DNA from: Treponema sp. | GTDB lineage: Bacteria > Spirochaetota > Spirochaetia > Treponematales > Breznakiellaceae | Assembly: GCA_031281025.1 (NCBI GenBank) | Contig: JAITFY010000005.1 | Span: 1 to 32,907, forward strand | Length of the DNA: 32,907 bases | Direction: 5' to 3' | Shown here: positions 5,056-32,907 of the stretch, piece by piece | Layout: each line of letters starts with the position of its first letter | Numbering within the stretch: the stretch's first letter is position 1 | Notes under the pieces: model-generated | The model's database searches: none | Seen by the model: only the letters and a program-made list of their open reading frames with translations | Told to the model about the DNA's origin: nothing | Made by a program: the position numbers and the translations under genes

Positions 5056-5083
5056 CTTTTTCCTCCAAATTTTTTTTATTTTT

Positions 5084-6252: not shown

Positions 6253-6277
6253 TTCTTTTGCAGTAATCCCCTACCCT
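6249..6277 (+). promoter_or_regulatory. Weak candidate promoter directly before cysS
   Basis: TTGATT (6249-6254) and TACCCT (6272-6277) are separated by 17 bases, and the -10 hexamer ends 6 bases before the cysS ATG. No Shine-Dalgarno sequence is present. The -10 is poor, so this is a suggestion supported mainly by the same geometry at other genes in the window. Confidence 0.3.
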
Positions 6278-6283
6278 ATATAT

Positions 6284-15260: not shown

Positions 15261-16280
15261 AAATACTGCTCTTTCGTGGTACTCTGTTCCTGGTTCAACT
15301 ATACATGATGGAAAATTACTATTGTTTGGCGAATCCGGGAAATGCTGAGTTTCCAGGCAGAAACCTGTATATTTTGTATAAAAGGAACCGTATTTACCCG
15401 CAATTACATTAAGGAAGTTCCCTGTATAAAGCTGGACACCAGGCTGGGACGTATAAACTTTCATTGAACGGCCGGAATAAGGTTCAAAAACTTCAGCACA
15501 GGGACGCAGCTGTCCCGGCTCTCCATCCACAACAAAGCAATTATCATATCCTTTAAAACATTCCAAAAGAGCGCTGTCTGGAAGTATTTTTCTTCGTGTG
15601 GTGAAATCTAAATCAGTATTTTCTACCGGAAGCAGGCGGCCTGTAGGAATAAGAGATTCGTCAACTTCAATATATGACGAAGAATAAATTTGCACCTCAT
15701 GTGAAAGAATATCCCCTTTCCCCTCACCTATTAAATTAAAATACGCATGGTTTGTTATATTTATAGGACAGCTCCGGTTTACTTTTGCACGATAATCACA
15801 GATTATTTCATTTGATTTTGTAAGACCATAACTGACTACTGCCTTTAACTTACCAGGAAAACCGCAGTCTCCATCCGGGCTTTCAAGCTCAAATCTTATG
15901 TAAACGCCTTCGGCCTCTTCGTATGCTTCGGATTTCCAGCGGCGTTTGGCAAAATTTCTATATCCCGAATGAAGTGTATTTTCGCCATTATTTTTATCAA
16001 GACGATACGTTTTCCCATTCAAACTAAAAGCAGCTCCCTTGATACGATTGGCAACACGTCCAACTGTAGAGCCAAGATACGGCTCATTGCTCAGGTAACC
16101 ATCCAGTCCCGGGAAACCAAGCAGTATATCATCCTTACCATAACGTGAAGGAACAATTAAACTTGTCCATGAAGCGCCAATGTTTGTCAAAGAAAGCTTT
16201 AAATCGCCGGCGCTAAGCGTATACAATTTAGCTTTCTTTCCATTAGAAAGAATTCCAAATCTTTCTTTTTCAATGTTCAT
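15246..16280 (-). CDS. galM: Aldose 1-epimerase (mutarotase)
   Basis: Interconverts alpha and beta anomers of glucose or galactose ahead of sugar metabolism. A 344-residue protein of normal length. The mutarotase signatures include GSTVGRVANRI, His104 (NTLHSGYRNF), the catalytic acid His178 (ITNHAYFNLIGEG), and the catalytic base Glu310 (GFCLETQHFPDSPNN), with the usual Phe-Pro-Asp-x-Pro-Asn context. No Shine-Dalgarno sequence precedes the ATG; instead a TATAAT ends 7 bases upstream, implying a leaderless message. It is a monocistronic minus-strand gene whose 3' end overlaps the CorC-like gene by 15 bases. Confidence 0.97.
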   Translation of the reverse strand: MNIEKERFGILSNGKKAKLYTLSAGDLKLSLTNIGASWTSLIVPSRYGKDDILLGFPGLDGYLSNEPYLGSTVGRVANRIKGAAFSLNGKTYRLDKNNGENTLHSGYRNFAKRRWKSEAYEEAEGVYIRFELESPDGDCGFPGKLKAVVSYGLTKSNEIICDYRAKVNRSCPINITNHAYFNLIGEGKGDILSHEVQIYSSSYIEVDESLIPTGRLLPVENTDLDFTTRRKILPDSALLECFKGYDNCFVVDGEPGQLRPCAEVFEPYSGRSMKVYTSQPGVQLYTGNFLNVIAGKYGSFYTKYTGFCLETQHFPDSPNNSNFPSCIVEPGTEYHERAVFSLDW

Positions 16281-16287
16281 GATAGGG

Positions 16288-16316
16288 ATTATATGCCTTT
16301 ATGCGTTTTTTGTATA
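16288..16316 (-). promoter_or_regulatory. galM promoter with leaderless geometry
   Basis: On the minus strand, -35 TATACA (16311-16316), a 17-base spacer and a perfect -10 TATAAT (16288-16293). The -10 ends 7 bases before the galM ATG, so transcription should begin at or within a base or two of the start codon. Confidence 0.65.
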
Positions 16317-16332
16317 GATAACACAGTTATAT

Positions 16333-16932
16333 CTAAAAACTATACCCAAGTCCCAAACCATAAAAATTATATGAATAGTTCTGAGGCGACGTACTGCCGT
16401 TTGAAAAATGATGAAAAAATATTTCTGTGCGCCAATTTCCGGTAAAGTTATATCCTGTAAACAATTTTAACCCAACAAGGAATTTCGTGCTGATACGCTC
16501 GTTTTCGCTTGCCTGAATTCCGGTGCCAATTCCAGTACCAAAATACCACTTATTTGTCCATACCATAACAACATCAGTCGATAGGAATGCAATTCTGGTA
16601 GTAAAATCCCGCCAGTTCCATGTATCATACGGACATTCACTTTTACCATACCCTATTGTCTGAATAACATTGGCAGATAAACGTGCAGGCAGACGGAAAA
16701 ATTCAATCGGTTGCGAATATTGGAAATGAAACATTATAAATGGAACAGGTTTTTCTGGCAGTTCGAGCATCCATGTTCCCGCTATCCCCTGACCTATATT
16801 AAGCATAAGCTGGTTTTCTTTGTCACCAAACAAAGGATTCCAGGACTTTTCGGTACGGGCAAAAAAACGAAACTCTGCCTCTGCGACGAAGACAGAAAAA
16901 AGCAACATAAACACTGATAATACTATTTTCAT
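16333..16932 (-). CDS. PagL-like outer-membrane beta-barrel (acyloxyacyl hydrolase/lipid A deacylase family)
   Basis: A 199-residue predicted outer-membrane protein with signal peptide MKIVLSVFMLLFSVFVAEA and a C-terminal Phe (GLGLGYSF) typical of barrels. Near the end it carries FFHHFSNGSTSP, matching the His-x-Ser-Asn motif of PagL lipid A 3-O-deacylases (His175, Ser177). At the spacing of the third PagL catalytic residue (a Glu in the characterised enzyme) there is Asn189. The length and strand pattern (FTTRIAFLSTDVVMVW, WYFGTGIGTGIQA, FLVGLKLFTGYNF) fit an eight-stranded barrel. The family assignment rests on this motif and the architecture; the substrate in a spirochaete, which may lack classical LPS, is uncertain. 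GAGG lies about 10 bases before the ATG, and the gene has its own promoter after the upstream barrel gene. Confidence 0.75.
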   Translation of the reverse strand: MKIVLSVFMLLFSVFVAEAEFRFFARTEKSWNPLFGDKENQLMLNIGQGIAGTWMLELPEKPVPFIMFHFQYSQPIEFFRLPARLSANVIQTIGYGKSECPYDTWNWRDFTTRIAFLSTDVVMVWTNKWYFGTGIGTGIQASENERISTKFLVGLKLFTGYNFTGNWRTEIFFHHFSNGSTSPQNYSYNFYGLGLGYSF

Positions 16933-16953
16933 TTTTGCGCTTCCTCGTTATGA

Positions 16954-16982
16954 ATAATACAATTTTTTTTCTATCGTGTATA
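16954..16982 (-). promoter_or_regulatory. Promoter of the PagL-like gene
   Basis: On the minus strand, TATACA (16977-16982), a 17-base spacer and TATTAT (16954-16959). The -35 hexamer is the same as in the galM promoter. The leader would be about 14-16 bases and contain GAGG. Confidence 0.5.
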
Positions 16983-16995
16983 CTAATTTAGCGTA

Positions 16996-18150
16996 TCAAA
17001 ATCTAAGCCGGATTTTCGCAGTACAAATAACACCAGAAAATTCATTGGTATCAAAAGGCGTTTGTACCATAAATGTAAATACTACACCCTGAAAAAAATT
17101 GTGATTCAAAGTGATCATCGGTGTAAAAAAAGTATCCTCAAAGTTAATATCATCATAACCAGAAACAAGCACTATGTTCATATTTTTAAAACTGGAAACC
17201 AACGCAACGTTTAAATTTGTAAAATCGTTAAAACGCCATGTAAAGCCAGTATACAAATTATGTTTAAAAGGCGACTCATACAAATTCTTTTCTGAATTAA
17301 ATGCAGCGGTTGAAGATTTCCCGCCATTATATAAATACTCCGCCAAAACAAGTAAACTACCGTCAAAAAAAGAGTAGTCTGCGCCTAGACTTAACGAAAG
17401 CCCATCGGAGTCAAAACCCGCATTGTAGTCATAAGAATAAAGCGCATCAATGACAAGGCCAATTTCCACATCAGCTTTTATCGAAAGCCCTGCACGGTGA
17501 ATCCCAAGTGCGGTACCTGTATTGGGTGTCTCAAATGAGTATAACGCCTGCACGCTTGCCGCATTCCAATTATGATTTACAGAAAAACCAAACAAAGAAC
17601 CTTTACCTTCCACTGACAAGGAGTCGCGCGGAGATGCAAAAAAGCCAAGCAGCTTAAGTTCATCGGTTGGGAACCAAGTGAGAGAAACGCCAAGTATACC
17701 ACGCGGACGGGCATCTGGTTTTAGAGGGTTTCTGGGATTAAGGAAATCCGTAGAGCCCCACACCTGACTATATCCAAATGGCAGACGCATGAGGCCTCCG
17801 TCAAAATCGATATGATCGCCGCGCAAGCGATAATGCAGCCGTTCCAGCTCTATCGCTGCAACGAAATTTTCATCTGTGGGAGTTCCCAAACCTTCTAAAT
17901 TAATAGCATAAATTCCAGAAGCGGCAATAAGATTCACTGCGCCAAAAATAGTTCCGCCTTCCCTAAGCCTGGATTGAAAACGCATATTAGCAAATTGTTC
18001 AAAACCATAAGTGAAGTCTGGCAGGTCGCTTTCATTTTTTCCTGCATTCAAACTGATAGTAGAGTCCAAAAGACCAGAAACAGTCATCTGCGCTGAAACA
18101 CCACTGATTAGAAAAACTACTAATACACAAGAAATAATTATTTTCTTCAT
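16996..18150 (-). CDS. Outer-membrane beta-barrel (porin-like), last gene of the Lol-like operon
   Basis: A 384-residue predicted outer-membrane protein. A signal peptide (MKKIIISCVLVVFLISGVSA, cleavage before QMTVSG) is followed by an almost continuous series of amphipathic beta-strands: MTVSGLLDSTISLNAG, LRVGGL-type turns, HLYTGFTWRFNDFTNLNVAL and IVFTFMVQT-like strands. It ends in RLRF with the C-terminal Phe used by the barrel assembly machinery. The motif FGYSQVWGSTDFLNPRNPL resembles porin- or alginate-porin-like proteins. I cannot assign a substrate. AAGGAG lies 7 bases before the ATG. It follows the LolA-like gene by 39 bases with no obvious terminator, so it appears co-transcribed with the ABC system and may be its outer-membrane partner or client. 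Confidence 0.83.
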   Translation of the reverse strand: MKKIIISCVLVVFLISGVSAQMTVSGLLDSTISLNAGKNESDLPDFTYGFEQFANMRFQSRLREGGTIFGAVNLIAASGIYAINLEGLGTPTDENFVAAIELERLHYRLRGDHIDFDGGLMRLPFGYSQVWGSTDFLNPRNPLKPDARPRGILGVSLTWFPTDELKLLGFFASPRDSLSVEGKGSLFGFSVNHNWNAASVQALYSFETPNTGTALGIHRAGLSIKADVEIGLVIDALYSYDYNAGFDSDGLSLSLGADYSFFDGSLLVLAEYLYNGGKSSTAAFNSEKNLYESPFKHNLYTGFTWRFNDFTNLNVALVSSFKNMNIVLVSGYDDINFEDTFFTPMITLNHNFFQGVVFTFMVQTPFDTNEFSGVICTAKIRLRF

Positions 18151-18189
18151 AAAGTTTCTCCTTTAATTTCTCGCAGAGTTAATATCGAC

Positions 18190-18939
18190 TTATCTCTCCA
18201 GGTTTCTATCACTAAACACTGAATCCGCTATGGGCCTGTCCAGTATTACATTTCTCATAACAAAAGTAGTATTTATTCCGCCTTGAATATCGCGCATTTC
18301 TCCTTTTACCGGAAAACGGCGGTTGCCTATAACTTGAACCTCGAGCATTTCGTATTCTTTAAGCAATGCGCCGGAAAGAGCAAATAGCTCATAACGTAAA
18401 ACATCATCGTTTTCCTTGTCGATCCACAGTTTGCGCCTGGCGTAGTACTCTCTGGTTCGATCAATGGCGTTAAGCTCCAGCACCCAGACATCACGATTGC
18501 CATTGGGCCTTGTTACTGTTTCCGAACCTAAAAGAACAGGATTGTAACGTCTGGATAACGGAGCATTATCCAGAGTATCTTCGTAAGACATTGCCGATCC
18601 CATCATTGAGTCCCTTAACATATGACCTGATATAAGCATCACACCTTCGTTATCTGGAGAGTAGACCATCAACCTGCCGTCTCTTCTAAGGTACCTTGTT
18701 CCCCTGTCTTCCCGGTTTGTAAATTCAATAAAGCTGTGGGTATTTCCCCTTGCCCATGCGTTAAATGTTATTACAAACTGGCGCCCCCTGCGTTCATTGA
18801 TAATTTCGCCTTCGTACTGAATAGTGTTAAAAATCTCGTTGTTATCTACCCTGCGCAAAATTTCCACAGCAGAAGGCGTCTGCGAAAAACCAAGACCTGC
18901 AACCGCAAACATAAAAACAATTAAAAACAAATTCTTCAT
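18190..18939 (-). CDS. LolA-like outer-membrane lipoprotein-sorting protein
   Basis: A 249-residue periplasmic protein with signal peptide MKNLFLIVFMFAVAGLGFS. The mature part matches the 'outer membrane lipoprotein-sorting protein' family: EILRRVDNN at the N-terminus, the strands GEIINERRGRQFVITFNAWA and THSFIEFTNREDRGTRYLR, then SAMSYEDTL, VWVLELNAI and LWIDKEND followed by ALLKEYEMLEVQVIG. These proteins share the half-barrel LolA/LolB fold that shields acyl chains. There is no lipobox, so it is expected to be soluble and carrier-like. The start at 18939 has GGAGG 7 bases upstream; a longer frame would overlap the permease gene. It sits 22 bases after the second permease, matching the idea that the ABC transporter hands cargo to it. 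Confidence 0.9.
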   Translation of the reverse strand: MKNLFLIVFMFAVAGLGFSQTPSAVEILRRVDNNEIFNTIQYEGEIINERRGRQFVITFNAWARGNTHSFIEFTNREDRGTRYLRRDGRLMVYSPDNEGVMLISGHMLRDSMMGSAMSYEDTLDNAPLSRRYNPVLLGSETVTRPNGNRDVWVLELNAIDRTREYYARRKLWIDKENDDVLRYELFALSGALLKEYEMLEVQVIGNRRFPVKGEMRDIQGGINTTFVMRNVILDRPIADSVFSDRNLER

Positions 18940-18961
18940 AAAACAACCTCCAAAAGAATAC

Positions 18962-20230
18962 TTATCTCCTAAGAGCCTCGACAGGCTCAACAAAAGCGCT
19001 CTTCAGTGATGGAATCAACGTGAAAAGCGAAGCGATTACAACACCCATTACCCATGCCCGTATAAGTATGAACGAATTAAATGCCAAAAAGATCGATTGA
19101 CTCATTGGCATTTCCGAAAAAGTATTCCCGTACATGTCTCCTATACGAATGGGGTTCTGAGAAAAGATGCCGGTAATTGTTCCGCCAATAATAATCCCTG
19201 CAAGAGCGCCAATAGCAGCCATGAAAATGGACTCAAAGAAAAATACCTTGACAATTTCCGTACGAGTCATGCCAAGACAGCCCATCATTCCAATTTCCTT
19301 TATTCGTTCATGAATGATCATTACAACTGTATTGATAATAAGGAAACTTGCCACAATCAAAAAAATCAAAAACACAATTACATAAACAGGCTCTACCATT
19401 CTCATTATTGCAACCCAGTAGTTATCACCCCATTCCGTAACGACATTACCTTCACCTAACATTTCCTGCACAGCAGCAGTGATAACACCGCTTTTTCTGT
19501 CATCATCGGCATAAATCACCAGTGATTGTGTTCCTTCGTCCATTACCAATAGCCGTTGGAGCCGCTCAAAATCTACAATGATGTATTGCTCATCAATCTT
19601 GATATAATCAAAACTAAATATGCCGGTAATAACAGGACTCCAAAATCTTTCCGAATAATTAGCCGAGATTGTCCTTAACGGAATCCGATCTCCTATTTCC
19701 AATCCTGCTTTATCGGCAAAAACTCTTCCGATGGCAGCTTCGTTGGCATCAACAGGCCATTCTCCGTCCAACAAACCATCACTGCGGTTAGTCATGTTAA
19801 AATAGTTAGCCGCCATTTCTTTTCTGATATCCAAACCCCACAAAATTGCATGTTTTATCGAACTTTCCTGTAATGTTGCCATAGTAGTAATCCGCGGCAT
19901 TACAGCCCGCACTCCTGGAATTTGATAAATCTCCTGTGCAAGTTCTTCCCAATTTCTTCCATCTGCAACAGGAAACTGCACAGGCATATATTCGCTTTCT
20001 GCTTCGAATTCGGATGACACTATTTTGACATGTCCCAGCTCATAAATTTGTACAGTGTCATTTATACTCTTGATCATTCCTTCAATCATGGAAGAATAAA
20101 AAACAATAAAGAGTACAGCAATTCCCACCGCAGTAAAACAAAAAATTGTACGTCGTTTATTCCGCCAAATATTGCGGAAAGCAATTTTAATTAAAGCTCC
20201 CGTACCGCCTTTTTCATATTTATTTGTCAT
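18962..20230 (-). CDS. ABC transporter permease, MacB/LolC-LolE type (second permease)
   Basis: A 422-residue FtsX-like permease. The layout is typical: one N-terminal membrane segment (TIFCFTAVGIAVLFIVFY), a periplasmic domain of about 220 residues, and three C-terminal segments (VYVIVFLIFLIVASFLIINT, IGALAGIIIGGTITGIF, VMGVVIASLFTLIPS). The coupling helix contains HERIKEIGMMGCLGMT, and the C-terminus ends in PVEALRR, as in many LolCE/MacB permeases. Such permeases extract lipoproteins or other cargo from the outer leaflet of the inner membrane. The start is the ATG at 20230, with GGAGG 5 bases upstream; the ATG at 20242 has none. It follows the first permease after 15 bases. Confidence 0.92.
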   Translation of the reverse strand: MTNKYEKGGTGALIKIAFRNIWRNKRRTIFCFTAVGIAVLFIVFYSSMIEGMIKSINDTVQIYELGHVKIVSSEFEAESEYMPVQFPVADGRNWEELAQEIYQIPGVRAVMPRITTMATLQESSIKHAILWGLDIRKEMAANYFNMTNRSDGLLDGEWPVDANEAAIGRVFADKAGLEIGDRIPLRTISANYSERFWSPVITGIFSFDYIKIDEQYIIVDFERLQRLLVMDEGTQSLVIYADDDRKSGVITAAVQEMLGEGNVVTEWGDNYWVAIMRMVEPVYVIVFLIFLIVASFLIINTVVMIIHERIKEIGMMGCLGMTRTEIVKVFFFESIFMAAIGALAGIIIGGTITGIFSQNPIRIGDMYGNTFSEMPMSQSIFLAFNSFILIRAWVMGVVIASLFTLIPSLKSAFVEPVEALRR

Positions 20231-20245
20231 AACACCCTCCATTCA

Positions 20246-21994
20246 TTATTCAAACCTTAAGCTGTCGGTTATGGGTTTTTTCACCGCTCTTTTTGTCGGG
20301 AAATAAGCCATAAAAGATGCAAGCAATGTTGCAACAACACCCGAACCGATAATCACAGGAATGTTCCACATACTTCGGAAAATTGCAGTTGTGCGAAAGC
20401 CAATACCTCCATCCAGCAGATCTCCCATTGCGCTAAAATCAATCCCATGTTCTACCATTGGATAATTGATCAGACAACCCGCTATTATTCCCAAAATTGA
20501 ACCGATAAGTCCCAATGAACCTGCTTCCATCATGTATGTAAGAATCATCTGCCTGTCTGTCATGCCCATTGCACGCATCATGCCAATTTCTTTGGTACGT
20601 TCCAGTATCGCCAGCAAAATGGTATTGGAAATTCCCAAAAACGAAAGAATAAGCAAAAGGAATGCCAGAATTTGCGGAGCGCCAACCTGAAGCGCTTCAT
20701 ACCCAAGATAGTCAGCCATGTAGTCCTGCCAGGTAAACACGCCAAGGAAGCCGGGCATTGCTATTCCCATGGATGCCAGCCCTCGTTCCAATGCAGCAGC
20801 AATAACTTCAGAGCTTTCGCTTACTCCAGGAAGACGTGTATCGGGAACGCCCCTTTCTCTGATGATCAACTCTGTAACTGCGCCGCCAAGCATCATGCCC
20901 TTTTCGTCCTGCAAAATATCCAGCGGAATAAAAGCAGTGTTGCCGTTTGGAAGCGGCGCCGGCGAGTTAATTATTCCAACAACCGTTACATCCAGAAGCT
21001 GATTCACATGGCGTACCGCTCCTCTGTAACCTGCCCTAATCATGGCATCCAAAACTTGCCGCAGTTGTTGTTCGTCTTCCTCGATAAGAAAATATCTATC
21101 AAAGGATTCATTATGCTGATACGCGGCTTTAACCAAAGCGATATCTTCGTATCGCAATTCTGGCATTAACTCTCCATCCCATCTGTCCGCCCGAATCATT
21201 TCCGGTACAGCCTTTATATCTATAACAGCATTGATACGCATATTGTTACGGCCGGAAGCTGCAATTAAATCCCAATATCGATCAAGTTTTTCTTTCATTT
21301 CCGGCGACTTATCTCTGTTAAGGATCATTCGTTCGTTACCCGCTATAATTCTTTCCGCCGGAGAAAAAATATCTCCCCCGCCGCGTGCAGAAGGCGCTTC
21401 ATTATAAAGTGACCAAATAAAATCCTCAACCAAAGGATCTTGTGTTATGGATTTAATCAGTTCATCCAGCTCTTGCCGCAAAGGACGAGTGGGAATACCA
21501 ACCCTAAGTCTTTCGGCAGCCACAGTTCCCAAAACAATTTCAAAATTGCCATTCTGAACAAAACGCCCAAAGTCAACATACGATGCATAACGCAGGACTT
21601 CATGATCTATGTCAGGTTCAATACCAAAAAACATAATGGGAGCCGAACCCGATAAAGAAAATAACGTACCTGCAAATGTAAAACGCGGAGCGCTGACATA
21701 ACCTTCACGTAACAGAGCTTCCCTGTAGATTTCCCAATTCATAAAACTTTCATAACTGGGCATTTCGTCTTTCCTATCAAAATAGAGAAGCGTTTGCAAT
21801 TTGGCAGCTCCTATTTCAAAGTTAACGATATTCCTGCGGGATTCAATTTGCATACCGCCCAGCCAACTATTTAGAAAAATATAAACAGCTACGCTTACCA
21901 TGATCGCCAATGAAGTAAGAATTGTTTTTGTTTTGTGGCGGGCAAGATTTCGCATTGCCATTTTTTTTAATTGCCATATACCTGATAATTTCAT
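20246..21994 (-). CDS. ABC transporter permease, MacB/LolC-LolE type, enlarged periplasmic domain (first permease)
   Basis: A 582-residue FtsX-like permease. The N-terminal segment follows MRNLARHKTKTILTSLAIMV, and three C-terminal segments include ILAFLLLILSFLGISNTILL, GLIGSILGIIAGCLINY and VIIGSGVVATLLASFMAYF. The coupling motif LERTKEIGMMRAMGMTDRQ is classical. The periplasmic part is about 150 residues longer than in LolC/LolE. It contains an apparently helical insertion (around AERIIAGNERMILNRDKSPE and DEQQLRQVLDAMIRAGYRG) that may dictate cargo or partner specificity. The ATG at 21994 is 7 bases past the stop of the ATPase gene; the longer frame from 22081 would overlap the ATPase and lacks a membrane-protein-like start. 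It presumably forms a heterodimer with the second permease. Confidence 0.9.
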   Translation of the reverse strand: MKLSGIWQLKKMAMRNLARHKTKTILTSLAIMVSVAVYIFLNSWLGGMQIESRRNIVNFEIGAAKLQTLLYFDRKDEMPSYESFMNWEIYREALLREGYVSAPRFTFAGTLFSLSGSAPIMFFGIEPDIDHEVLRYASYVDFGRFVQNGNFEIVLGTVAAERLRVGIPTRPLRQELDELIKSITQDPLVEDFIWSLYNEAPSARGGGDIFSPAERIIAGNERMILNRDKSPEMKEKLDRYWDLIAASGRNNMRINAVIDIKAVPEMIRADRWDGELMPELRYEDIALVKAAYQHNESFDRYFLIEEDEQQLRQVLDAMIRAGYRGAVRHVNQLLDVTVVGIINSPAPLPNGNTAFIPLDILQDEKGMMLGGAVTELIIRERGVPDTRLPGVSESSEVIAAALERGLASMGIAMPGFLGVFTWQDYMADYLGYEALQVGAPQILAFLLLILSFLGISNTILLAILERTKEIGMMRAMGMTDRQMILTYMMEAGSLGLIGSILGIIAGCLINYPMVEHGIDFSAMGDLLDGGIGFRTTAIFRSMWNIPVIIGSGVVATLLASFMAYFPTKRAVKKPITDSLRFE

Positions 21995-22001
21995 AATGGG
22001 C

Positions 22002-22685
22002 TCACTTAAGATCGTCGGACTCGATTTGTCCGTCACGAATACGCACCAGGCGGCGGGCATAATCCATGACCATTTGATCATGGGTGGAGAAAATGAACGT
22101 AGTCCCTTCGGATTTGTTCAGTTCCAGCATAAGTTCCAGAATCTCGCGCCCAATTTTTGAATCAAGGTTTGCAGTCGGTTCATCGGCCAAAATAAGAGCC
22201 GGCTTTTTGACAAGCGCCCGGGCAATAGCAACACGCTGCTGCTGACCGCCGGACATTTCCTTAGGACGCCGCTTTGCCATATCCTCAAGGCCTACATCCC
22301 TTAAAACTTTGGCAGTGCGTTCTTTAATTTCCTTTTTCCCAACACCCATGAGAGTAAGCGGGAAGGAAACATTTTCTTCTACAGAGAGCACTGGGATAAG
22401 GTTATAAGCCTGAAAGATGAAACCAATACTATGCCGCCGCAGGAGCGCCAATTGTTTTCGGGTCATCTTTGCTGTGTTTGAACCGCCAACGATTATGTCT
22501 CCCGATGTGATTGTGTCCAGACACCCAACCAGATGCAGGAAAGTAGACTTTCCGCTTCCCGAAGGGCCTGCAATGGCGGAAAATTCTCCACTCTGGAATT
22601 CCAGATTTACACCTCGCAGGGCATGCACCGTTTGTTCTTTTAAACCGTAGTCTTTTACTACATTTTCTGCTTTTACAACTGTCAT
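22002..22685 (-). CDS. ABC transporter ATP-binding protein, LolD/MacB type
   Basis: A 227-residue ATPase powering the two downstream permeases. All nucleotide-binding motifs are visible: Walker A AGPSGSGKST (residues 40-48 region), Q-loop GFIFQAYNLIP, signature MSGGQQQRVAIARAL, Walker B LILADEPTANLDSK, and the switch His in FSTHD. The pattern IFQAYNLIPVLSVEENVSFP is typical of the LolD/MacB subfamily. GGAGG lies 7 bases before the ATG. It is the first gene of the five-gene export operon and begins 37 bases after the toxin gene, so transcripts from the toxin-antitoxin promoter could read into it. Confidence 0.95.
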   Translation of the reverse strand: MTVVKAENVVKDYGLKEQTVHALRGVNLEFQSGEFSAIAGPSGSGKSTFLHLVGCLDTITSGDIIVGGSNTAKMTRKQLALLRRHSIGFIFQAYNLIPVLSVEENVSFPLTLMGVGKKEIKERTAKVLRDVGLEDMAKRRPKEMSGGQQQRVAIARALVKKPALILADEPTANLDSKIGREILELMLELNKSEGTTFIFSTHDQMVMDYARRLVRIRDGQIESDDLK

Positions 22686-22722
22686 CTTTTTCCTCCAATT
22701 AATTTTATTAGTTCATTATTCA

Positions 22723-23103
22723 CTACACCACCATAACCAAAGAGGAATATTCTCCTAAAATGGCATCGCTTGTTACAAGCCGCATTGGACAGGTGATAGC
22801 TTGAGCCAGAAGCATGTGGTCAAACGGGTCTTTGTGTAATTGCGGCAATTCGAGGTATGTTTTGGTGTAGTCGGCGGTTATTGGTAAATCAATGTAATTA
22901 TAATTTTTAGCAAGAGATCGAAGAATACTATATTCAATAGGTAATTTTCCGCTCCGTAATTTAATCGCTATTTCCCACCAGGAAACAGCGCTGATAAAAA
23001 GCTGTGTTTCTTCTGAAAATAATAAAGGTTTTATCTTGCTTATTCTTGGATTATCCTCAGAAAGCCAAATAACTATATTTGTGTCTAACAGAAATTGGGT
23101 CAT
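22723..23103 (-). CDS. VapC-like PIN-domain toxin
   Basis: A 126-residue PIN-domain ribonuclease of a type II toxin-antitoxin pair; relatives cleave tRNA or rRNA and are neutralised by the neighbouring antitoxin. Acidic active-site signatures are present: LLDTNIVIWL (Asp7), the Glu of SWWEIAIKLRSGK, HKDPFDHMLLAQA and LVTSDAIL. The length is typical. Start and antitoxin stop overlap by four bases (ATGA), the usual arrangement for coupled expression. It reads as an intact gene with no frameshift. Confidence 0.93.
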   Translation of the reverse strand: MTQFLLDTNIVIWLSEDNPRISKIKPLLFSEETQLFISAVSWWEIAIKLRSGKLPIEYSILRSLAKNYNYIDLPITADYTKTYLELPQLHKDPFDHMLLAQAITCPMRLVTSDAILGEYSSLVMVV

Positions 23104-23396
23104 TTTTTTTCAAAGTCCTCTAGTCCGCGCATACTATAAAACATTTCTTCGATTTCCTCATCTGTGAAAGGATCATCCCAGCCTTCATTAAGCACAACTT
23201 TTCCTTTCATGCAGCCAATAAATCCTTTGCGATGCTCAGCATCAATTTTTTTTTGATTAGCAGCTGAAAGTATCACTTCCGGTTTTCCATAAGCGCCAAT
23301 GTAGATTGTCTCTCCTGTCGCTGCCCGTTTAACCAACCTTGAGAAGTTGGTCTTTGCCTCGTGAATTGGAATGGGTTTTACTGCATAAGCCATCAT
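23100..23396 (-). CDS. Phd/YefM-type antitoxin
   Basis: A 98-residue antitoxin that neutralises the adjoining VapC-like toxin and probably binds its own promoter. The N-terminal DNA-binding signature is PIPIHEAKTNFSRLVKRAA, followed by GETIYIGAYGKPEVIL, as in Phd/YefM proteins. The acidic, helical C-terminal half (DDPFTDEEIEEMFYSMRGLE) would wrap the toxin. The ATG at 23396 is chosen because AGGTGA lies suitably upstream. A longer form from the ATG at 23429 (12 extra, acidic residues) is possible: it sits 6 bases after the -10 element, so it could be used from a leaderless message. Confidence 0.87.
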   Translation of the reverse strand: MMAYAVKPIPIHEAKTNFSRLVKRAATGETIYIGAYGKPEVILSAANQKKIDAEHRKGFIGCMKGKVVLNEGWDDPFTDEEIEEMFYSMRGLEDFEKK

Positions 23397-23435
23397 AGGC
23401 TCACCTACAAAAAGTTCTTCGTCTTCCATAACACA

Positions 23436-23465
23436 AGCTTAGTCCATGCTGGGCTAAGCTGTCAA
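23436..23465 (-). promoter_or_regulatory. Toxin-antitoxin promoter overlapped by a 25-base palindrome (candidate operator)
   Basis: On the minus strand a perfect -35 TTGACA (23460-23465) is followed after 18 bases by a weak -10 TAAGCT (23436-23441). The palindrome at 23436-23460 has arms AGCTTAG/CTAAGCT plus inner CCA/TGG around TGC, with one mismatched pair. It fills the space from the last base of the -35 to the -10. Antitoxin binding here would occlude RNA polymerase, the usual autoregulation of such operons. Confidence 0.65.
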
Positions 23466-23503
23466 GTAGAATAACAGATAAAAGTGCTAGCAGCTACAAC
23501 AAT

Positions 23504-24727: not shown

Positions 24728-24795
24728 ATCACTCCCTCCAGATTCCATCCTGCTTCTATTATTTTAGTTTATTTATGCCGATAATAGAAGAGGAT

Positions 24796-26163: not shown

Positions 26164-26175
26164 GGGGTTCTAGGC

Positions 26176-26204
26176 AAGACATTCCACCATAAAAGTGCTA
26201 TACT
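26176..26204 (+). promoter_or_regulatory. Promoter of the HAD hydrolase gene, leaderless geometry
   Basis: AAGACA (26176-26181), a 17-base spacer and TATACT (26199-26204). The -10 ends six bases before the ATG at 26211, and no Shine-Dalgarno sequence is present. Confidence 0.65.
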
Positions 26205-26210
26205 AAAAAA

Positions 26211-26918
26211 ATGCAAAACAACATCAAAGCCATAACATTTGATCTGGACGGGACATTATATCCAAACTACCGTATAAACATCAAACTAATACCATTTACA
26301 TTGAAGCAATGGCGGCTATTATCAACTTTTGGCAAGGTAAGAAAAATTATTCGCCAGGAGCAGGAAAAAAACTTGCAGGATTCCCCGCAGCTTTTTGCTC
26401 CATGCAGTGATATATACGAATATCAGGCACAGATGACTGCAAAAATCCTTTCTGACAATCCTGAACAAATAAGAGAAAAAATCGACCGCTTAATTTATCG
26501 AGGATGGGAGCCGCTTTTTAAAACTGTCAAACTTTTTAAGGGAGTACATGAAACGCTTGAGACCTTTCGTAAAGCCGGTTACAAGCTGGGACTTATGTCG
26601 GACTTTCCTCCCGAAACAAAATTGAAAAACTTAAAGGTAAACGACTGTTGGGATACCGTACAATGTTCTGAACGCTGCGGCGCGCTTAAACCTCATCCCT
26701 TGCCTTTTATCAAACTTGCCCAGGCATTATCCCTGCCGCCGCAAAATATACTTTACGTGGGAAATAGTTATTCTTATGATGTGGTTGGCGCTGCCAGAGC
26801 GGGAATGAAAACAGCATGGCTTAAACCGGCATTTGCCCTTAATAGCAAAAAAATGAGCATAAAACCTGATTTTTCTTTTAATAACTATCGCCAATTGCAT
26901 GACTTTGTGATAAGATAA
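26211..26918 (+). CDS. HAD-superfamily hydrolase
   Basis: A 235-residue haloacid-dehalogenase-like phosphatase, cytoplasmic. The four motifs are in order: I, FDLDGTLYP (nucleophile and acid Asp at about residues 11 and 13); II, GLMSDFPPETK (Ser); III, CGALKPHP (Lys); IV, YVGNSYSYDVVGAARAG (Asp). A helical cap domain lies between motifs I and II (about residues 20-110). The class resembles phosphoglycolate phosphatase or YjjG-like nucleotidases, but the substrate cannot be named. The start has no ribosome-binding site and lies directly after a promoter. It is separated from the next gene by 42 bases that contain a perfect TATAAT. Confidence 0.9.
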   Translation: MQNNIKAITFDLDGTLYPNYRINIKLIPFTLKQWRLLSTFGKVRKIIRQEQEKNLQDSPQLFAPCSDIYEYQAQMTAKILSDNPEQIREKIDRLIYRGWEPLFKTVKLFKGVHETLETFRKAGYKLGLMSDFPPETKLKNLKVNDCWDTVQCSERCGALKPHPLPFIKLAQALSLPPQNILYVGNSYSYDVVGAARAGMKTAWLKPAFALNSKKMSIKPDFSFNNYRQLHDFVIR

Positions 26919-26948
26919 CTTAGATAAAGGTATTATTCGGGGAGGGTG

Positions 26949-26954
26949 TATAAT
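26949..26954 (+). promoter_or_regulatory. Perfect -10 element six bases before the giant coiled-coil gene
   Basis: TATAAT at 26949-26954 is followed by six bases and the ATG at 26961. I see no good -35 at 16-18 bases. A strong ribosome-binding-like GGGGAGGG (26939-26946) lies upstream of the -10. It would be used only on transcripts reading through from the HAD gene. Confidence 0.5.
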
Positions 26955-26960
26955 ACTGTG

Positions 26961-29900
26961 ATGTTTACAATAGGAAATTTAATAACACTTGGTTTAGCTG
27001 CTTGTTTCCTTATCTTTTACCGGGTAACGGACAAAAACAACCGTTCTCTTGATAAGGTGAAAAAATTCGCAGACAAGTGCAAGGACGAGATTGCCGCTTA
27101 CGTTGATGAAAAAGGCATGGCAGTTAAGAATTTTGGCATTGACCTGGAAATCGAAAAAAAAGCAGCCGTCCAGTTAATGAAAAATATTCAGCAGCTTACC
27201 GAAGAAGATCTTGCAAAAAAGTCAGAAACCATAGCTCGTATAGAAGGACATATTAAAGCCTTTGAGTTATCGCTAGAAGAACTATTCGGAATGACAGACA
27301 GAGTGCAGGAAAACCTCAGCCGCATCCGGGATGAATCTGCCTTTGTGGAAAATACAAACAAGCGGGTAAGCGAAGCCAAAGACAAATTTGAACACGTAGA
27401 AAAAGCGCTTCTGGCAGCAGTAAAAAATCTTAAGGATACCGAAGCGTATCTTGAAAAAAAGAATGTCGAACATCTGGAACAAACTGCACAGGAAGTATTA
27501 ATATCGACAAAATCATATATATCCGATTTTGAAGTTACTGCTCAGGTAATTGAACAAAAAATCGAAGATCACCGGGAAGCTGTAATAAAAATAGAACGCG
27601 AGCGTGAAGCAATTCTAAATCACGATATGGAACAGGTAAAAAACCTTTTAAAGGATGTTCTTGAAAATGCAGGAAAACGTGCAGACAAACTGGAAGAGGC
27701 CGCTTTAGTAAAATTACGTGAACAGGCTCAGGAAAGAGTAAACCAGATAAAAGTTTTTTTTGAAGAAAAGATAAAAAACACACAGGATACGCTTAAAACA
27801 GAGCATGTAACAATCAACGAAAAAATAAAAACAATTCATGATAAATGTAATACAGAGATCCTTGATATCAGCACAAAACACAAAAACACACATCAGGAAT
27901 GGATAAAAGGATCCGCCGAATTAGACAATATGGCAAAAAAACAAAAAGAAGAAATTATTACTTCTCTTGCACGCCAACAGGAAGAAATAACAAATGCGCT
28001 TACAAAAGAACGGGAAGCTATCAATACATCTTTGGTGCAGCAGCAAAATGACTGGAAAAATAATTTTTACGAGTTTAAAAGAGTAGCAGAAAAACAACGC
28101 ATGGATCTGGAAGGAAATTTAACTTCAACCAAAACAGAATTAAACCAATCGATAATTGAACTGCGTACAAAATCCGAAGCAGTAATAAAACAACAGCATG
28201 ACGAACTGGATACAGCTATTAAGCTTCACCAAAAAGAAATTGTTACCTCCATAGCAGAACATAAAGAAAACTCTGCTGCTGCTGTCAAAAAACAACAGCA
28301 AGAAACAGGCGAAATTCTTTCCAAGCTTAGTTCATCGCTTTCTAATTTACAGGCACAATCAAATGATATAAAAAATCAACACAGTGAGCAGCTTGGCGTT
28401 ATACTTAGCCAAGTCAGAGAAAAGTCCAATGCAGCTGTAATTCAGCACGAAAAAGAACTGTCCGAAATTATCAATGAACTTAAAGCAAATTCCGGCGTTG
28501 CTGTAAATCAACAGCAAAATGAAATTAATTACACCCTTAAAACTTTAAAGGAAAATACAGAAGCTGCCGTAAGATCACAGCAAAACGAACTTACAACAGT
28601 ACTCAAAGAATTAAAAGAAAACGCAGAAAATCTGGTTAGTTCCCAACAAGAAGAATTATCATCAGCGCTCACTGAATTAAAAAACAAAACACAGATGTCG
28701 GTTAAATCTCAACAAGAAGAATTGTCATCAGAGCTCAGTGAATTAAAAGAAAAAACAGAGACGATTGTTTTATCTCAACAAAATGAATTATCATCAACAA
28801 TTAGTGAATTAAAGGAAACTTCGGAAACACTGGTTAGAACTCAACAAAACGAGCTGTCATCAGCGCTTAAAGTATTAAAAGAAACATCAGATATGTTGGC
28901 TAGTTCTCAACAGGAAGAGCTCTCATCAACACTTAGAGGATTAAAAGAAAACTCAGAAACATTGGTAAGAGCTCAACAAAACGAGTTATCATCAGCAATC
29001 AGGATATTAAAAGAAAGCTCGGAAACGTTAATTAGTTCTCAACATGAAGAGATATCTTCGGCGCTTATGGAATTAAAAGAAAGCGCAGAGACAAAAATTT
29101 TATCTCAGCAAAAAGAGCTGTCATCAACTCTCAGTGAATTAAAAGAAAAAACAGATACTATTGCAAGAACCCAACAAAACGAGTTGTCATTAACACTTAG
29201 GGGATTAAAAGAAAACTCAGAAACTTTAGTTAGCTCTCATCAAGAAGAGCTGTCATCAACTCTCAGGGAATTAAAAGAAAACTCAGAGACGAAAATCTTG
29301 TCTCAGCAAAACGAGCTGTCATCGACACTTCAAAAAATCAGACAGAATACCGAAACTGCCGTAATACAGCAGAAAAACGAAATTGATCTTTCGTTAAAGG
29401 AACTTAAAGAAAAATCAAACGCTTCTTTTACAAATCAAATTGAAGACTTAAGCGGCTCTCTTAATAAACAGATGGAAGAATGGAAACTTCTTTGCAAGGA
29501 TACAGAGCAAAATATCATTTTTGCAAACGAAAAAAGACTTGATGAATACAGTAAAACACACGAAGAAGCTGTAAAACAGCTTATCAATCTGGCAGATGAT
29601 GCGGCAACACTGGAAAACGAACTTCGTAAATCCATGCAGGAAGTAATTACAAGAATTAAAAACGATTTCTCCGGATTCGAAAATGAATCCAGCGTAAACA
29701 TGGAAGCTGCCGCCGCTGCGTTTGAAACACAGGCTTTAGCCTTACGCAAAGAGATTGAAGATACAAACAGGGAACTTGACGACATAAGGAAGCAGGCTTC
29801 CAATAATGTTTCGGAAAAACTTATCTCCTTTGAAAACACTTTTACAGCAGAGCTTGGAAAACGCGCATCCGAAATGGGAAGACAAATTGCAGACTGGCAA

Positions 29901-31364
29901 ACCGGCATCCTGGAACGTTTCGCAAACAGCGAGGAAAAAATCACGCAGGATTGGCAGACAGCCGAGCAGCGTATCAGTTTGGAGCAGAGGAATTCTGTCT
30001 CTGCAATGGCTGATAAATTAACAACAGACCTTGAAAGACTCAAGCAGGAAACATCTGCGTTTGAAATGGGCATTCGGGAAGAATTGCGCAGCGTTGATGA
30101 AGCGCGCGCATCATTGATAGTGCAGCGCAAGCACGACCTTGATGAAATTCGCGTTTCTGCAGAAAACGAAGTTAAAACACAAATTGGTCAATATCAAATA
30201 TCCATGCAGGAGATATTGCGGCAAAAACAAAGAGAATTGGAAAAAGAACTAGAAGATATCAGTATCCGCTGCAGCAACGAATATACATCACTCGAAGATA
30301 CTGCGCGTAATACACGGCAAAGCCTTGACGATTGGCAGGCTCAGTATTTAGCCAGAATGCGCGAAATGGATGAAAGCCTGGAAAAACTTGGCAGACATTC
30401 AAGAGAAGCTGCATCCGAGAATGACGACCGGTTTGCTTTATTCCGCACAAACCTGGAAGATATCCGCAAGGAACTTAGTATTCAGAAAAAGATCATCGAC
30501 CAGACAGAAGATTTAAACTCTGTACTTGAAAGGCGCAAAGAAGAAATCAATACCGATCTTAACAGGCTGGATCAAAGAAGAAGCGAAATTGCCGAGCTTG
30601 AAAATCAATTGAATCATGTAAGAAGGCTTGGAGATGATGTAAACAACAAGATGACCCGCTTCCTCTCCGAAAACCGGCGTATAGAACTTATGGAAGAAAG
30701 TTTTGGCAGGCTGTTAAAAACATCCGCCGTAGTGGAAGAAAATCTAAAGTCTGTTACATCTTCGAATGATATTCTCCAGGCAGAACAGGTAAAAATACGA
30801 AAACTGGAAGAAGCAATAAAAGATGTCGAAGAAAAATACCAGCGTGTAGAAAAGAAAAACGAAGTACTCGAAGAAACCTCCGAAGCAATCGACCGTAACT
30901 TTAAAGCATTGCAAAAAACTGAAGGCTCAGTTAAAAATGCAGAGCAGACAATTTCCATGCTTTCTGGCCAATTTGATAACATACATTCATCAATCGAAGA
31001 TTTAGCTGCACAAAACGAAAAGGCAACAAATGCCATTGATAAAATTACCGTTCTTGATGAATCTCTTGTCCAGATTGAAAAGCGCATCAATGACATGAAC
31101 GTTGCCCGTGAATGGGTTGCAAAAACAGAAACCAGGTTAAATGAACTTAACAAAGAAGCAAAAGAACATGTTAAATTGATCAAGGGCCTTTTTGAAAGCG
31201 AAAAAGGAAAAACCCCTGTAAACGAAGGGGCTCCGCCGCCGCAGGTTCGCGACAATATCAGAAGGCTGTACGAGCAGGGATGGAAAACCGAGGAGATTGC
31301 AAAAGCCATGCAGCGTTCCGTTGGCGAGATTGAACTGACTCTGGAGATAATAACCAGAAGATAA
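26961..31364 (+). CDS. Giant coiled-coil membrane-anchored protein (SpiroCoCo-like) with 22-residue repeats
   Basis: A 1467-residue protein resembling the very long coiled-coil proteins of treponemes. A single N-terminal membrane segment (MFTIGNLITLGLAACFLIFY) is followed by almost uninterrupted charged helix. The central part, residues 496-825, is 15 tandem repeats of exactly 22 residues with consensus QQNELSSTLRELKENSETLV plus two residues. Because 22 is two hendecads, the coil is expected to be nearly straight rather than a classical left-handed heptad coil. More irregular coiled coil follows. After a short linker (GAPPPQV) the last 40 residues form a helix-turn-helix-like module (IRRLYEQGWKTEEIAKAM, SVGEIELTLEII). 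A structural role under the inner membrane, near cytoskeletal filaments or flagella, is a guess. The ATG at 26961 is chosen from its spacing to TATAAT; a GTG at 26946 overlaps the GGAGG. Its stop overlaps the next start (TAATG). Confidence 0.88.
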   Translation: MFTIGNLITLGLAACFLIFYRVTDKNNRSLDKVKKFADKCKDEIAAYVDEKGMAVKNFGIDLEIEKKAAVQLMKNIQQLTEEDLAKKSETIARIEGHIKAFELSLEELFGMTDRVQENLSRIRDESAFVENTNKRVSEAKDKFEHVEKALLAAVKNLKDTEAYLEKKNVEHLEQTAQEVLISTKSYISDFEVTAQVIEQKIEDHREAVIKIEREREAILNHDMEQVKNLLKDVLENAGKRADKLEEAALVKLREQAQERVNQIKVFFEEKIKNTQDTLKTEHVTINEKIKTIHDKCNTEILDISTKHKNTHQEWIKGSAELDNMAKKQKEEIITSLARQQEEITNALTKEREAINTSLVQQQNDWKNNFYEFKRVAEKQRMDLEGNLTSTKTELNQSIIELRTKSEAVIKQQHDELDTAIKLHQKEIVTSIAEHKENSAAAVKKQQQETGEILSKLSSSLSNLQAQSNDIKNQHSEQLGVILSQVREKSNAAVIQHEKELSEIINELKANSGVAVNQQQNEINYTLKTLKENTEAAVRSQQNELTTVLKELKENAENLVSSQQEELSSALTELKNKTQMSVKSQQEELSSELSELKEKTETIVLSQQNELSSTISELKETSETLVRTQQNELSSALKVLKETSDMLASSQQEELSSTLRGLKENSETLVRAQQNELSSAIRILKESSETLISSQHEEISSALMELKESAETKILSQQKELSSTLSELKEKTDTIARTQQNELSLTLRGLKENSETLVSSHQEELSSTLRELKENSETKILSQQNELSSTLQKIRQNTETAVIQQKNEIDLSLKELKEKSNASFTNQIEDLSGSLNKQMEEWKLLCKDTEQNIIFANEKRLDEYSKTHEEAVKQLINLADDAATLENELRKSMQEVITRIKNDFSGFENESSVNMEAAAAAFETQALALRKEIEDTNRELDDIRKQASNNVSEKLISFENTFTAELGKRASEMGRQIADWQTGILERFANSEEKITQDWQTAEQRISLEQRNSVSAMADKLTTDLERLKQETSAFEMGIREELRSVDEARASLIVQRKHDLDEIRVSAENEVKTQIGQYQISMQEILRQKQRELEKELEDISIRCSNEYTSLEDTARNTRQSLDDWQAQYLARMREMDESLEKLGRHSREAASENDDRFALFRTNLEDIRKELSIQKKIIDQTEDLNSVLERRKEEINTDLNRLDQRRSEIAELENQLNHVRRLGDDVNNKMTRFLSENRRIELMEESFGRLLKTSAVVEENLKSVTSSNDILQAEQVKIRKLEEAIKDVEEKYQRVEKKNEVLEETSEAIDRNFKALQKTEGSVKNAEQTISMLSGQFDNIHSSIEDLAAQNEKATNAIDKITVLDESLVQIEKRINDMNVAREWVAKTETRLNELNKEAKEHVKLIKGLFESEKGKTPVNEGAPPPQVRDNIRRLYEQGWKTEEIAKAMQRSVGEIELTLEIITRR
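28446..29435 (+). repeat. Fifteen tandem 66-base repeats in the coiled-coil gene
   Basis: Fifteen consecutive in-frame 66-base units (28446-29435 is exactly 15 x 66) encode the 22-residue coiled-coil repeats. Units have diverged, but words such as the one encoding GLKENSETLV recur in units 8 and 12. Neighbouring pairs also resemble each other, suggesting expansion by unequal exchange of blocks larger than one unit. No unit carries an insertion or deletion. Confidence 0.92.
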
Positions 31365-32113
31365 TGGATTATACTGCCTGGAATAACTTTGTAAAAGCAA
31401 GAGAAAGTTTTCGCAATACAGTTGAGGATTTGTCGTTATCCCTGCCAAACTTAAAGGGTATCCAGCAAAAATTTGCAAACAGCCGCGGCGAAAATTGCGC
31501 CTATACGGTGGAAACTCCGGTTGTGTATAATACTGCGCTTGATGACATAACCAATAAAGATAAAGTAAAGCTAATTTTGGTTGCAGATAATCCGGGACGC
31601 AGAGAACAAGCCGCAGAAAACAGGCGCTACCTTGTTGGTCCGTCCGGAAAGATAGCGGGCAAATTTTTCCGCGACAACCCTTCACTTGGCATTGACTTTC
31701 AAAAAAATGTAATTATCCTTAACAAGACGCCGGTTCACAGCCCCCGTACAGTAGAGTTACGCGAATTATGCCGCATGGAAACTGCCAACGGACAATTAAC
31801 TGCTGCACTTGAAAATTCGCAAAGAACCATGGCGGAATTGCTTATCAACTTTCATGAAACGCTTGAATGTCCTGTGTGGATAACAGGTTATTCGGAAATG
31901 CGAAAAAATGGAATCTTTGAAGTTTACACAGAATCCCTAAAAAAGCTGTATGCGGACAAGAAGGACTTGTACAAACAACTTTTTGTTTTCCGCCATTTTT
32001 CCATGAATCAGTTTACTATTGACTTAAAGCAGCAAGCTTTGCCTGGAGAAAGTGTCGCAAAAAGCTTAAAGCGGATTGGCGCGGCGTATAGGGACAGGAT
32101 ATTGTATATGTAA
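31364..32113 (+). CDS. Uracil-DNA-glycosylase-fold protein
   Basis: A 249-residue protein that I place in the uracil-DNA glycosylase superfamily by motif. LILVADNPGRREQ (about residues 70-82) corresponds to the GEAPGxxED motif A, with RRYLVGPSGKIAGKFF matching the following 'F.G..G..L' loop. VIILNKTPVHSP matches the 'vyitNvvkhrPp' strand, and FVFRHFSMNQ matches the HPS-type motif near the C-terminus. The acidic catalytic position of motif A differs (Asn-Pro-Gly, then Glu-Gln), so glycosylase activity is not certain. Its ATG overlaps the coiled-coil stop as TAATG with no independent ribosome-binding site, so expression is translationally coupled to that gene. About 65 N-terminal residues precede the fold and are not recognised. 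Confidence 0.72.
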   Translation: MDYTAWNNFVKARESFRNTVEDLSLSLPNLKGIQQKFANSRGENCAYTVETPVVYNTALDDITNKDKVKLILVADNPGRREQAAENRRYLVGPSGKIAGKFFRDNPSLGIDFQKNVIILNKTPVHSPRTVELRELCRMETANGQLTAALENSQRTMAELLINFHETLECPVWITGYSEMRKNGIFEVYTESLKKLYADKKDLYKQLFVFRHFSMNQFTIDLKQQALPGESVAKSLKRIGAAYRDRILYM

Positions 32114-32127
32114 GGTAAAAAGCTGCC

Positions 32128-32157
32128 TTGCTTATAATTACACCCCCATGATACAAT
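32128..32157 (+). promoter_or_regulatory. Promoter of the tandem HD-domain gene, leaderless geometry
   Basis: TTGCTT (32128-32133), an 18-base spacer and TACAAT (32152-32157). The -10 ends six bases before the ATG at 32164, and no Shine-Dalgarno sequence is visible. Confidence 0.6.
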
Positions 32158-32163
32158 ACTCTC

Positions 32164-32907
32164 ATGACAATTAGAATGGATTCACTTATTCAAATACTTG
32201 CTCAGGCTCTGGACATGGTTGAAATAGCCTATTTGGGAAGGACAACCAACCATGGCAAGCGGATAGCGGTTTTATGTGCAGCAATGGCACGACGGCTGGG
32301 TATGACAGAACCTGAAGTTTCGGATGTAGTTTCATGCGCCCTGTTGCACGACAATGCTTTGACAGAATTTATTTTGCTGCAACAAGGGCGGGAAAAGGAC
32401 GAAAAAAACTTTGGCGTACACTGTGTAATTGGCCAGCAAAATGTGGAAATTCTCCCCTTTAACGGAAACATTGATGGATACATTCAATACCACCATGAAC
32501 AGGCTGACGGACTTGGACCTTTCAAATTAAAAGAAGGAAACTTTCCATTGGGAGCAGAGATCATTGCAGCAGCGGACTTTGTTGATACCCGGTGGAATTT
32601 GGAAACTGTTTCTCTGGAGAAACTGCCGTTAGTGCTAGAATATATCGAAACAGAAATTCACCGCCATTTTACAAAACGTGCCGGAAATGCGCTATTGGAA
32701 ATACTGGACGAGAGAATGTTAGCTTCCCTGCAGAATGGTGTAATTTACGATACTGTCCTGTACAGTATTCCTGTCTGGATCATGGATACAAATGATCCTG
32801 CGCTGTTACCATTTGCAGAGCTTATCTCCCGTATCATCGATTATAAATCAGCATCGACAGGTATCCATACACAGCAAATTGCAAACCGCATCTGGCTGAT
32901 GGCCGAA
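32164..32907 (+). CDS. Tandem HD-domain phosphohydrolase, 3' end outside window
   Basis: The frame is open from the ATG at 32164 to the right edge (248 codons). The first HD-type domain covers about residues 20-150: His30 (TTNHGKRIAVLC), the HD pair His62-Asp63 (ALLHDNALTEF), His96-region GVHCVIGQQNV, and HHEQADGLGPF, a GYP-like loop that lacks the Tyr-Pro order. IIAAADFVDTRW follows as in HD-GYP proteins. The last 25 residues, IIDYKSASTGIHTQQIANRI, look like the start of a second domain (compare DAKxxYTxGHSxRVA), so the full protein probably has two HD domains. Likely roles are cyclic-di-GMP or other nucleotide hydrolysis or binding. It starts 50 bases after the glycosylase-fold gene with its own promoter. 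Confidence 0.85.
   Translation, partial: MTIRMDSLIQILAQALDMVEIAYLGRTTNHGKRIAVLCAAMARRLGMTEPEVSDVVSCALLHDNALTEFILLQQGREKDEKNFGVHCVIGQQNVEILPFNGNIDGYIQYHHEQADGLGPFKLKEGNFPLGAEIIAAADFVDTRWNLETVSLEKLPLVLEYIETEIHRHFTKRAGNALLEILDERMLASLQNGVIYDTVLYSIPVWIMDTNDPALLPFAELISRIIDYKSASTGIHTQQIANRIWLMAE

Follow-up and report, generated by a model that had tools for sequence, protein, structure and literature searches.

Promoters placed at the start codon point to leaderless messages in about a tenth of the genes of a treponeme

The first 32,907 bases of contig 1 of a draft Treponema genome (the window; the draft has 175 contigs totalling 2,353,476 bases and an estimated completeness of 82.3%) raise a question about how messages begin. 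Several genes in the window lack a Shine-Dalgarno (SD) sequence and show a −10-like hexamer a few nucleotides (nt) ahead of the start codon. A preliminary description listed this geometry for galM, a HAD-like hydrolase gene, a long coiled-coil gene, the last HD-domain gene and cysS, and all five readings agree with the sequence base for base. RNA polymerase usually initiates 6–7 nt past the −10 box, so the 5′ end of such a message would lie at the A of the AUG or at most 1–2 nt from it. Are these genes leaderless? Our analysis argues that roughly a tenth of this treponeme's genes very probably are, their promoters being placed so that the message begins at the start codon.

The genome-wide evidence comes from 766,742 bases of the window's own genome (G000), window included. 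Genes were called with a dicodon coding model which is blind to both SD and promoter; it replaced an initial caller (223 genes in 358,310 bases) that had missed several known genes. The score threshold was changed from 15 (574 genes) to 9 (630 genes) before any profile was inspected. Starts close to contig ends or with an open 5′ side were removed, which left 593 (or 592) for use. A hexamer was taken as −10-like if it read TAnnnT with at least 5/6 matches to TATAAT, and as −35-like with at least 4/6 matches to TTGACA. The distance d is the number of nt between the end of the −10 hexamer and the start codon.

Among the 593 starts, −10-like hexamers occur 33 times at d = 6 and 12 times at d = 7; every other spacing from 0 to 44 holds 2 to 13, and dinucleotide shuffles average 5.0 per position. 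This is the strong excess over shuffled sequence which the preliminary description had proposed to look for across the genome. The signal is nearly restricted to starts without an SD: it precedes 31/316 of these at d = 6 compared with 2/277 SD starts. The local background of no-SD starts is 3.6 per position, against which the count of 31 has a Poisson p of 6e-19. At SD starts, −10-like hexamers lie mostly 14 nt or more upstream. In-frame ATGs inside the same genes lack a peak at d = 6 (15/4634, with 4 to 45 at the other spacings from 0 to 20). Furthermore, a strict rule which accepts a −10-like hexamer at d = 6–7 selected 0/243 starts in E. coli K-12 with the same caller.

The hexamers appear to belong to complete promoters. 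A TTGACA-like hexamer is found at a spacer of 17 in 14/31 no-SD cases at d = 6, while each other spacer from 12 to 23 holds 0–4. A two-block model was seeded with the standard consensus words and fitted to the complete set of G000 starts. It retained both TATAAT and TTGACA, and spacer 17 received 0.72 of the weight. The model assigns a box at d = 5–8 to 25% of no-SD starts (80 expected among 316, of which 48 at d = 6) versus 0.4% of SD starts; in three shuffles this share was at most 0.1%.

For held-out calls the model was trained on one half of the loci and run on the remaining half, with a cut at P > 0.8. It called 33/163 and 28/153 no-SD starts (61/316) and, among SD starts, 0/132 and 1/144 (1/276). 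Shuffled sequences passed at 0.5% and 0.9% (no SD) and at 0.8% and 2.1% (SD). With the in-sample prior fixed, 23/1580 shuffles and 34/4541 internal in-frame ATGs passed, and with G000 weights only 0.6 calls were expected among 119 no-SD starts of E. coli K-12. Leaderless calls therefore amount to 61/592 starts held out (~10%) and 69/592 in-sample. Two free fits were set aside: on E. coli the model settled on a non-promoter motif (GATAAG / CTGCTG; d = 5–8 shares of 0.096 without and 0.202 with SD), and on a genome of the same genus (G030) it assigned a promoter to 159/169 no-SD starts.

The 69 in-sample calls share traits which fit transcription starting at the A of the start codon in first genes. 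ATG is the start codon in 67/69, compared with 214/247 other no-SD and 256/276 SD starts, a comparison to be read with the caller's own preference for ATG in mind. A pyrimidine stands at −1 in 54/69 (78%) versus 133/247 (54%) and 160/276 (58%), an excess that transcription from this A as +1 would predict. In addition, an upstream gene on the same strand lies within 20 nt in just 9/69, versus 98/247 and 120/276.

Taken together, these data suggest the following scheme. About a tenth of the genes would carry sigma-70-type promoters (TTGACA-17-TATAAT) whose −10 box ends 6–7 nt ahead of the initiation codon. Their messages, devoid of an SD, would be translated by the leaderless route. Elsewhere in bacteria, such translation involves binding of the 5′-terminal AUG by the 70S ribosome or by a complex of the 30S subunit with initiation factor 2. 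The other genes would use the same promoter type further upstream together with a GGAG-type SD. The coexistence of two initiation modes, as proposed in the preliminary description, is thus supported by the d = 6 excess, its near-restriction to no-SD starts and the −35 at 17 bp. Promoter geometry, its statistics, the absence of an SD, the scarcity just behind same-strand genes and the recurrence in relatives are read from the DNA; the actual 5′ end and the translation mode we infer from them.

The most serious alternative keeps the promoters and moves the transcription start: synthesis would begin 1–4 nt ahead of the AUG and yield very short leaders. The model indeed places a minority of boxes at larger distances (14.0, 7.7 and 10.6 expected at d = 7, 8 and 9 versus 47.7 at d = 6), and galM in the window has d = 7. 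The peak nevertheless stands at d = 6, one polymerase step from +1, and the pyrimidine preference at −1 fits A at +1. We regard very short leaders as an unlikely general explanation, and a leader of 1–4 nt as possible in some genes. It is less probable still that the main message comes from promoters further upstream and that translation proceeds mostly from SD-less messages which carry a leader or span an operon. Bacteria often use alternative promoters, and cysS lies 31 nt behind a same-strand gene whose stop is overlapped by the −35 of cysS; the called genes, however, seldom follow a same-strand neighbor closely, as the 9/69 above indicates.

The window genes allow the start codons themselves to be compared between relatives. 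Ortholog loci were for each gene the best-scoring 30 of the search and hence not a random sample. For galM, these 30 loci (48/58 genomes matched) were complemented with 21 of 80 further loci (L231–L250, L255), and removal of four with short or duplicate upstream regions left 47 distinct orthologs: 9 of the leaderless type, 32 with an SD and 6 with neither. The three closest relatives (66–70% identity) have TATAAT at 6–7, and both kinds occur at 63% and below. The 30 HAD loci gave 29 distinct orthologs, 17 of the leaderless type, 12 with neither and none with an SD, some starts having been chosen up to 10 codons off the aligned place. Among the 18/30 HD loci retained (L131–L148; weaker or partial matches were left out), 7 are of the leaderless type, 3 have an SD and 8 neither. 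The 30 cysS orthologs divide into 9, 15 and 6, respectively.

Of the four main examples in the preliminary description, galM, the HAD gene and the last HD gene hold up, and the coiled-coil gene does not (Table 1). The description had further listed cysS as a weak fit. The geometry, TTGATT-17-TACCCT-6, is confirmed; the weakness is not, since the model P is high and relatives give good support: several no-SD cysS relatives retain TTGATT at a similar distance. The gene falls outside the interval that the description gave for the pattern.

Table 1. Promoters, starts and genes discussed, in window coordinates; P is the model value.
Feature	Position	Strand	Details
cysS promoter and start	6249..6286	+	−35 TTGATT 6249-6254; −10 TACCCT 6272-6277; ATG 6284; P 0.98
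cysS (cysteinyl-tRNA synthetase)	6284..7711	+	Pfam tRNA-synt_1e 3e-96
galM (aldose 1-epimerase)	15246..16280	-	Pfam Aldose_epim 6e-85
galM promoter and start	16278..16316	-	−35 TATACA 16311-16316; −10 TATAAT 16288-16293; ATG 16278-16280; TATACA-17-TATAAT-7; P 0.97
Phd/YefM-like antitoxin promoter and start	23427..23465	-	−35 TTGACA 23460-23465; −10 TAAGCT 23436-23441; ATG 23427-23429; TTGACA-18-TAAGCT-6; P 0.975
HAD promoter and start	26176..26213	+	−35 AAGACA 26176-26181; −10 TATACT 26199-26204; ATG 26211; AAGACA-17-TATACT-6; P 0.87
HAD-like hydrolase gene	26211..26918	+	Pfam HAD_2 3e-20
Coiled-coil start region	26939..26963	+	GGGGAGGG 26939-26946; TATAAT 26949-26954 (6 nt to ATG, no −35); GTG 26958; ATG 26961
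Last HD gene promoter and start	32128..32166	+	−35 TTGCTT 32128-32133; −10 TACAAT 32152-32157; ATG 32164; TTGCTT-18-TACAAT-6; P 0.99
HD-domain gene, truncated by window end	32164..32907	+	Pfam HD_5 3e-6

These alignments bear on a further alternative, namely that the start codons are wrong and that the true starts lie downstream, behind their own SD and with normal leaders. The caller does err elsewhere (ATG 7958, see below). The SD-led galM and HD orthologs, however, begin at the same aligned codon, as do the SD-led cysS orthologs shown, bar one. Moreover, misplaced starts would leave unexplained why the peak stands precisely 6 nt ahead of the called codon, and we consider this alternative very improbable. 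Hardly credible is, finally, the view that composition alone is responsible, with AT-rich upstream regions of no-SD starts (e.g. sites of ribosomal protein S1) yielding promoterless TATAAT-like words: these regions are AT-rich, and PMC5397173 states that the AT bias at −20 to −10 is not simply attributable to leaderless promoters, but the peak is sharp to one base, is coupled to a −35 at 17 bp and is absent from dinucleotide shuffles and internal ATGs.

The peak recurs in the sampled relatives, clearly in G030 and in a genome of another family of the order (G019; a single 2.78-Mb contig, with 38% GC in the sampled part), and weakly in a genome of another genus of the same family (G031; one contig). 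The strict rule selects 13/169 no-SD and 0/127 SD starts in G030, 9/70 and 0/81 in G019, and 6/72 and 0/79 in G031. In G019 the −35 stands at spacer 17 in 8/9 cases, and 16/151 starts were called leaderless.

On a larger scale, TATAAT-N6-ATG was counted in 146 genomes of the order. The pattern search comes with its own control, the reversed pattern, which is not matched in codon phase; a spacing of 9, which has the same phase as 6, was therefore added. The counts are 5973 for N6 and 3849 for N9, with more N6 in 120/146 genomes, fewer in 21 and equal numbers in 5. The N6/N9 ratio is 1.68 in the window's own genus, 1.50 in the rest of its family and, in three other groups, 1.59 (f3), 1.41 (f5) and 1.21 (f4); matches per genome are few in f5 and f4. 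The search also showed a conserved start whose spacing is somewhat longer: the same TATAATGCAACTCCCATG, with a 9-nt spacing, occurs in at least 6 genomes of the family (G031, G055, G146, G142, G129, G040).

Comparison of individual genes is consistent with conservation among the sampled genomes, on thin data. In 38 reciprocal pairs with aligned starts between G000 and G030, both members are leaderless in 3, one only in 4 and neither in 31. All six genome pairs together provide 74 ortholog pairs, with both in 3, one in 6 and neither in 65 (Fisher p 0.005).

Several points weigh against our conclusion. The statistics rest on only about one third of the G000 genome, SD calling was a simple word match and the starts come from a home-made caller. 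An SD and a −10 box share bases from about −12 to −7, so the SD contrast is partly forced by geometry; because of this positional competition it is not independent evidence on its own, which the shuffles, the internal ATGs and the −35 coupling are. As many as 247/316 no-SD starts stay below P > 0.8. Within the window, 29 starts were scored and one of the six high-scoring ones (ATG 7958) is wrong. In the relatives, a −35 at spacer 17 is scarce in G030 (3/10 at d = 6, 0/3 at d = 7) and in G031 (0/2 and 1/4), and d = 6 alone is not significant in G031 (2/72, p 0.11). The count across the order contrasts just two spacings and also takes in ATGs which are not starts, and the agreement between orthologs depends on few pairs. 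Lastly, for its 6 Spirochaetes PMC5397173 lists a mean of −3.25 in a column which we take as the PC3 related to leaderless genes or S1, and so finds no leaderless bias on average by that method. Leaderless messages beside SD-led genes nonetheless remain the supported interpretation, as the preliminary description had proposed.

A bolder idea is that, across the treponeme order, one and the same gene can exchange leaderless for SD-led initiation and vice versa. The bases from −12 to −7 would be taken up by one of two signals, a −10 box or an SD, and the galM and cysS families would flip between the two at the same start codon. No galM or cysS ortholog was scored as both leaderless-type and SD, an outcome that is largely forced since the signals overlap. 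The HAD family, with an SD in 0/29, shows no flipping. We put this idea forward tentatively and are inclined to doubt it. If true, leaderless status would be inherited and would add a layer, perhaps a regulatory one, to gene expression in treponemes.

The coiled-coil gene deserves separate mention as the gene among the noted examples where an SD is not absent. It was rejected as a leaderless example: GGGGAGGG stands upstream, and the model P is 0.036 for the ATG and 0.001 for the GTG. The comparison covered 30 ortholog loci. Relatives start one to three codons earlier, without TATAAT at 6, and so GTG 26958 may be the true start. An SD word is present in five ortholog rows, that of the window's own gene among them. 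Six relatives score 0.60–0.92, but what serves as their −35 is the conserved 3′ terminus of the HAD gene. Many genera of the family have the HAD gene next to the long coiled-coil gene (26211-31364 in the window). The open frame of the latter ranges from 389 to 3294 amino acids across the relatives' loci, some of which may be shortened by contig ends, and its Pfam matches are weak and below the cutoff.

One leaderless candidate in the window had been overlooked in the preliminary description, namely the gene of a Phd/YefM-like antitoxin (Table 1). It belongs to a pair resembling a toxin-antitoxin module (22726-23429, minus strand) in which the antitoxin, whose Pfam match is just under the cutoff, is followed by a PIN-domain protein. 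The high score of ATG 7958 (P 0.94) is a caller error, as this codon is internal to a sigma factor, the start of sigma region 2 being upstream of it. At 7721-8951, this sigma-70-family factor (start TTG 7721, with SD) adjoins a zf-HC2 zinc-finger gene, an arrangement that resembles a sigma/anti-sigma pair. A run of 13 G residues (5197-5209) separates the divergent genes 2524-5088 (minus strand) and 5395-6252 (plus strand); G tracts near promoters can be phase-variable in treponemes. Regarding the source organism, a comparison of galM with named genomes gave as best matches metagenome-assembled Treponema genomes, one Brevinematales and Spirochaetia or Spirochaetaceae bacteria. The isolate names of these assemblies presumably point to termite guts, which is probably the habitat of the window's treponeme as well.

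If our reading is correct, about a tenth of the genes here start translation without a leader, with a similar share in G019 of another family. Annotation based on the SD could then misplace such starts, and expression constructs which add a leader may behave differently. Leaderless translation would furthermore be common to treponemes, Leptospira and Borrelia.

The preliminary description considered leaderless genes not to be a noted theme in treponemes, in agreement with our literature search. In open-licence PubMed Central, no paper on leaderless mRNA in treponemes was found by titles and the beginnings of abstracts, and a search combining Treponema, transcriptional start site and RACE (rapid amplification of cDNA ends) returned nothing. 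Related systems have been described. The survey of Zheng et al. 2011 took TANNNT about 12 bp upstream of the start as leaderless and predicts such genes in 6/18 Spirochaetes genomes (mean 3.9%, range 1.8–6.9%; PMC3160421); its main text does not contain the word Treponema. The share of about 10% found here (61/592 held out) differs from that of these TA-led genes and was obtained by a different method which also uses the −35. The same source gives around 20% and 40% of leaderless genes for Actinobacteria and Deinococcus-Thermus; the −10 box at the start codon and the lack of an SD are shared with the treponeme, in which the proportion is lower.

Within the phylum, the closest parallel is Leptospira interrogans, where leaderless genes likewise exist beside leadered ones. 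Differential RNA sequencing, as reported in PMC5243855, placed the 5′ end of 430–450 genes within 10 bp of the start codon, and exactly at it for 184 and 170 genes at two temperatures. There the ends were measured and in our treponeme they are deduced from sequence; in addition, Leptospira belongs to another spirochete order. Borrelia burgdorferi is another spirochete said to have frequent leaderless transcripts, in one sentence of a ribosome-structure paper (PMC10618245). For the phylum, leaderless expression is thus not new, given Leptospira, Borrelia and the survey of Zheng et al.; our analysis extends this established mode of expression to treponemes.

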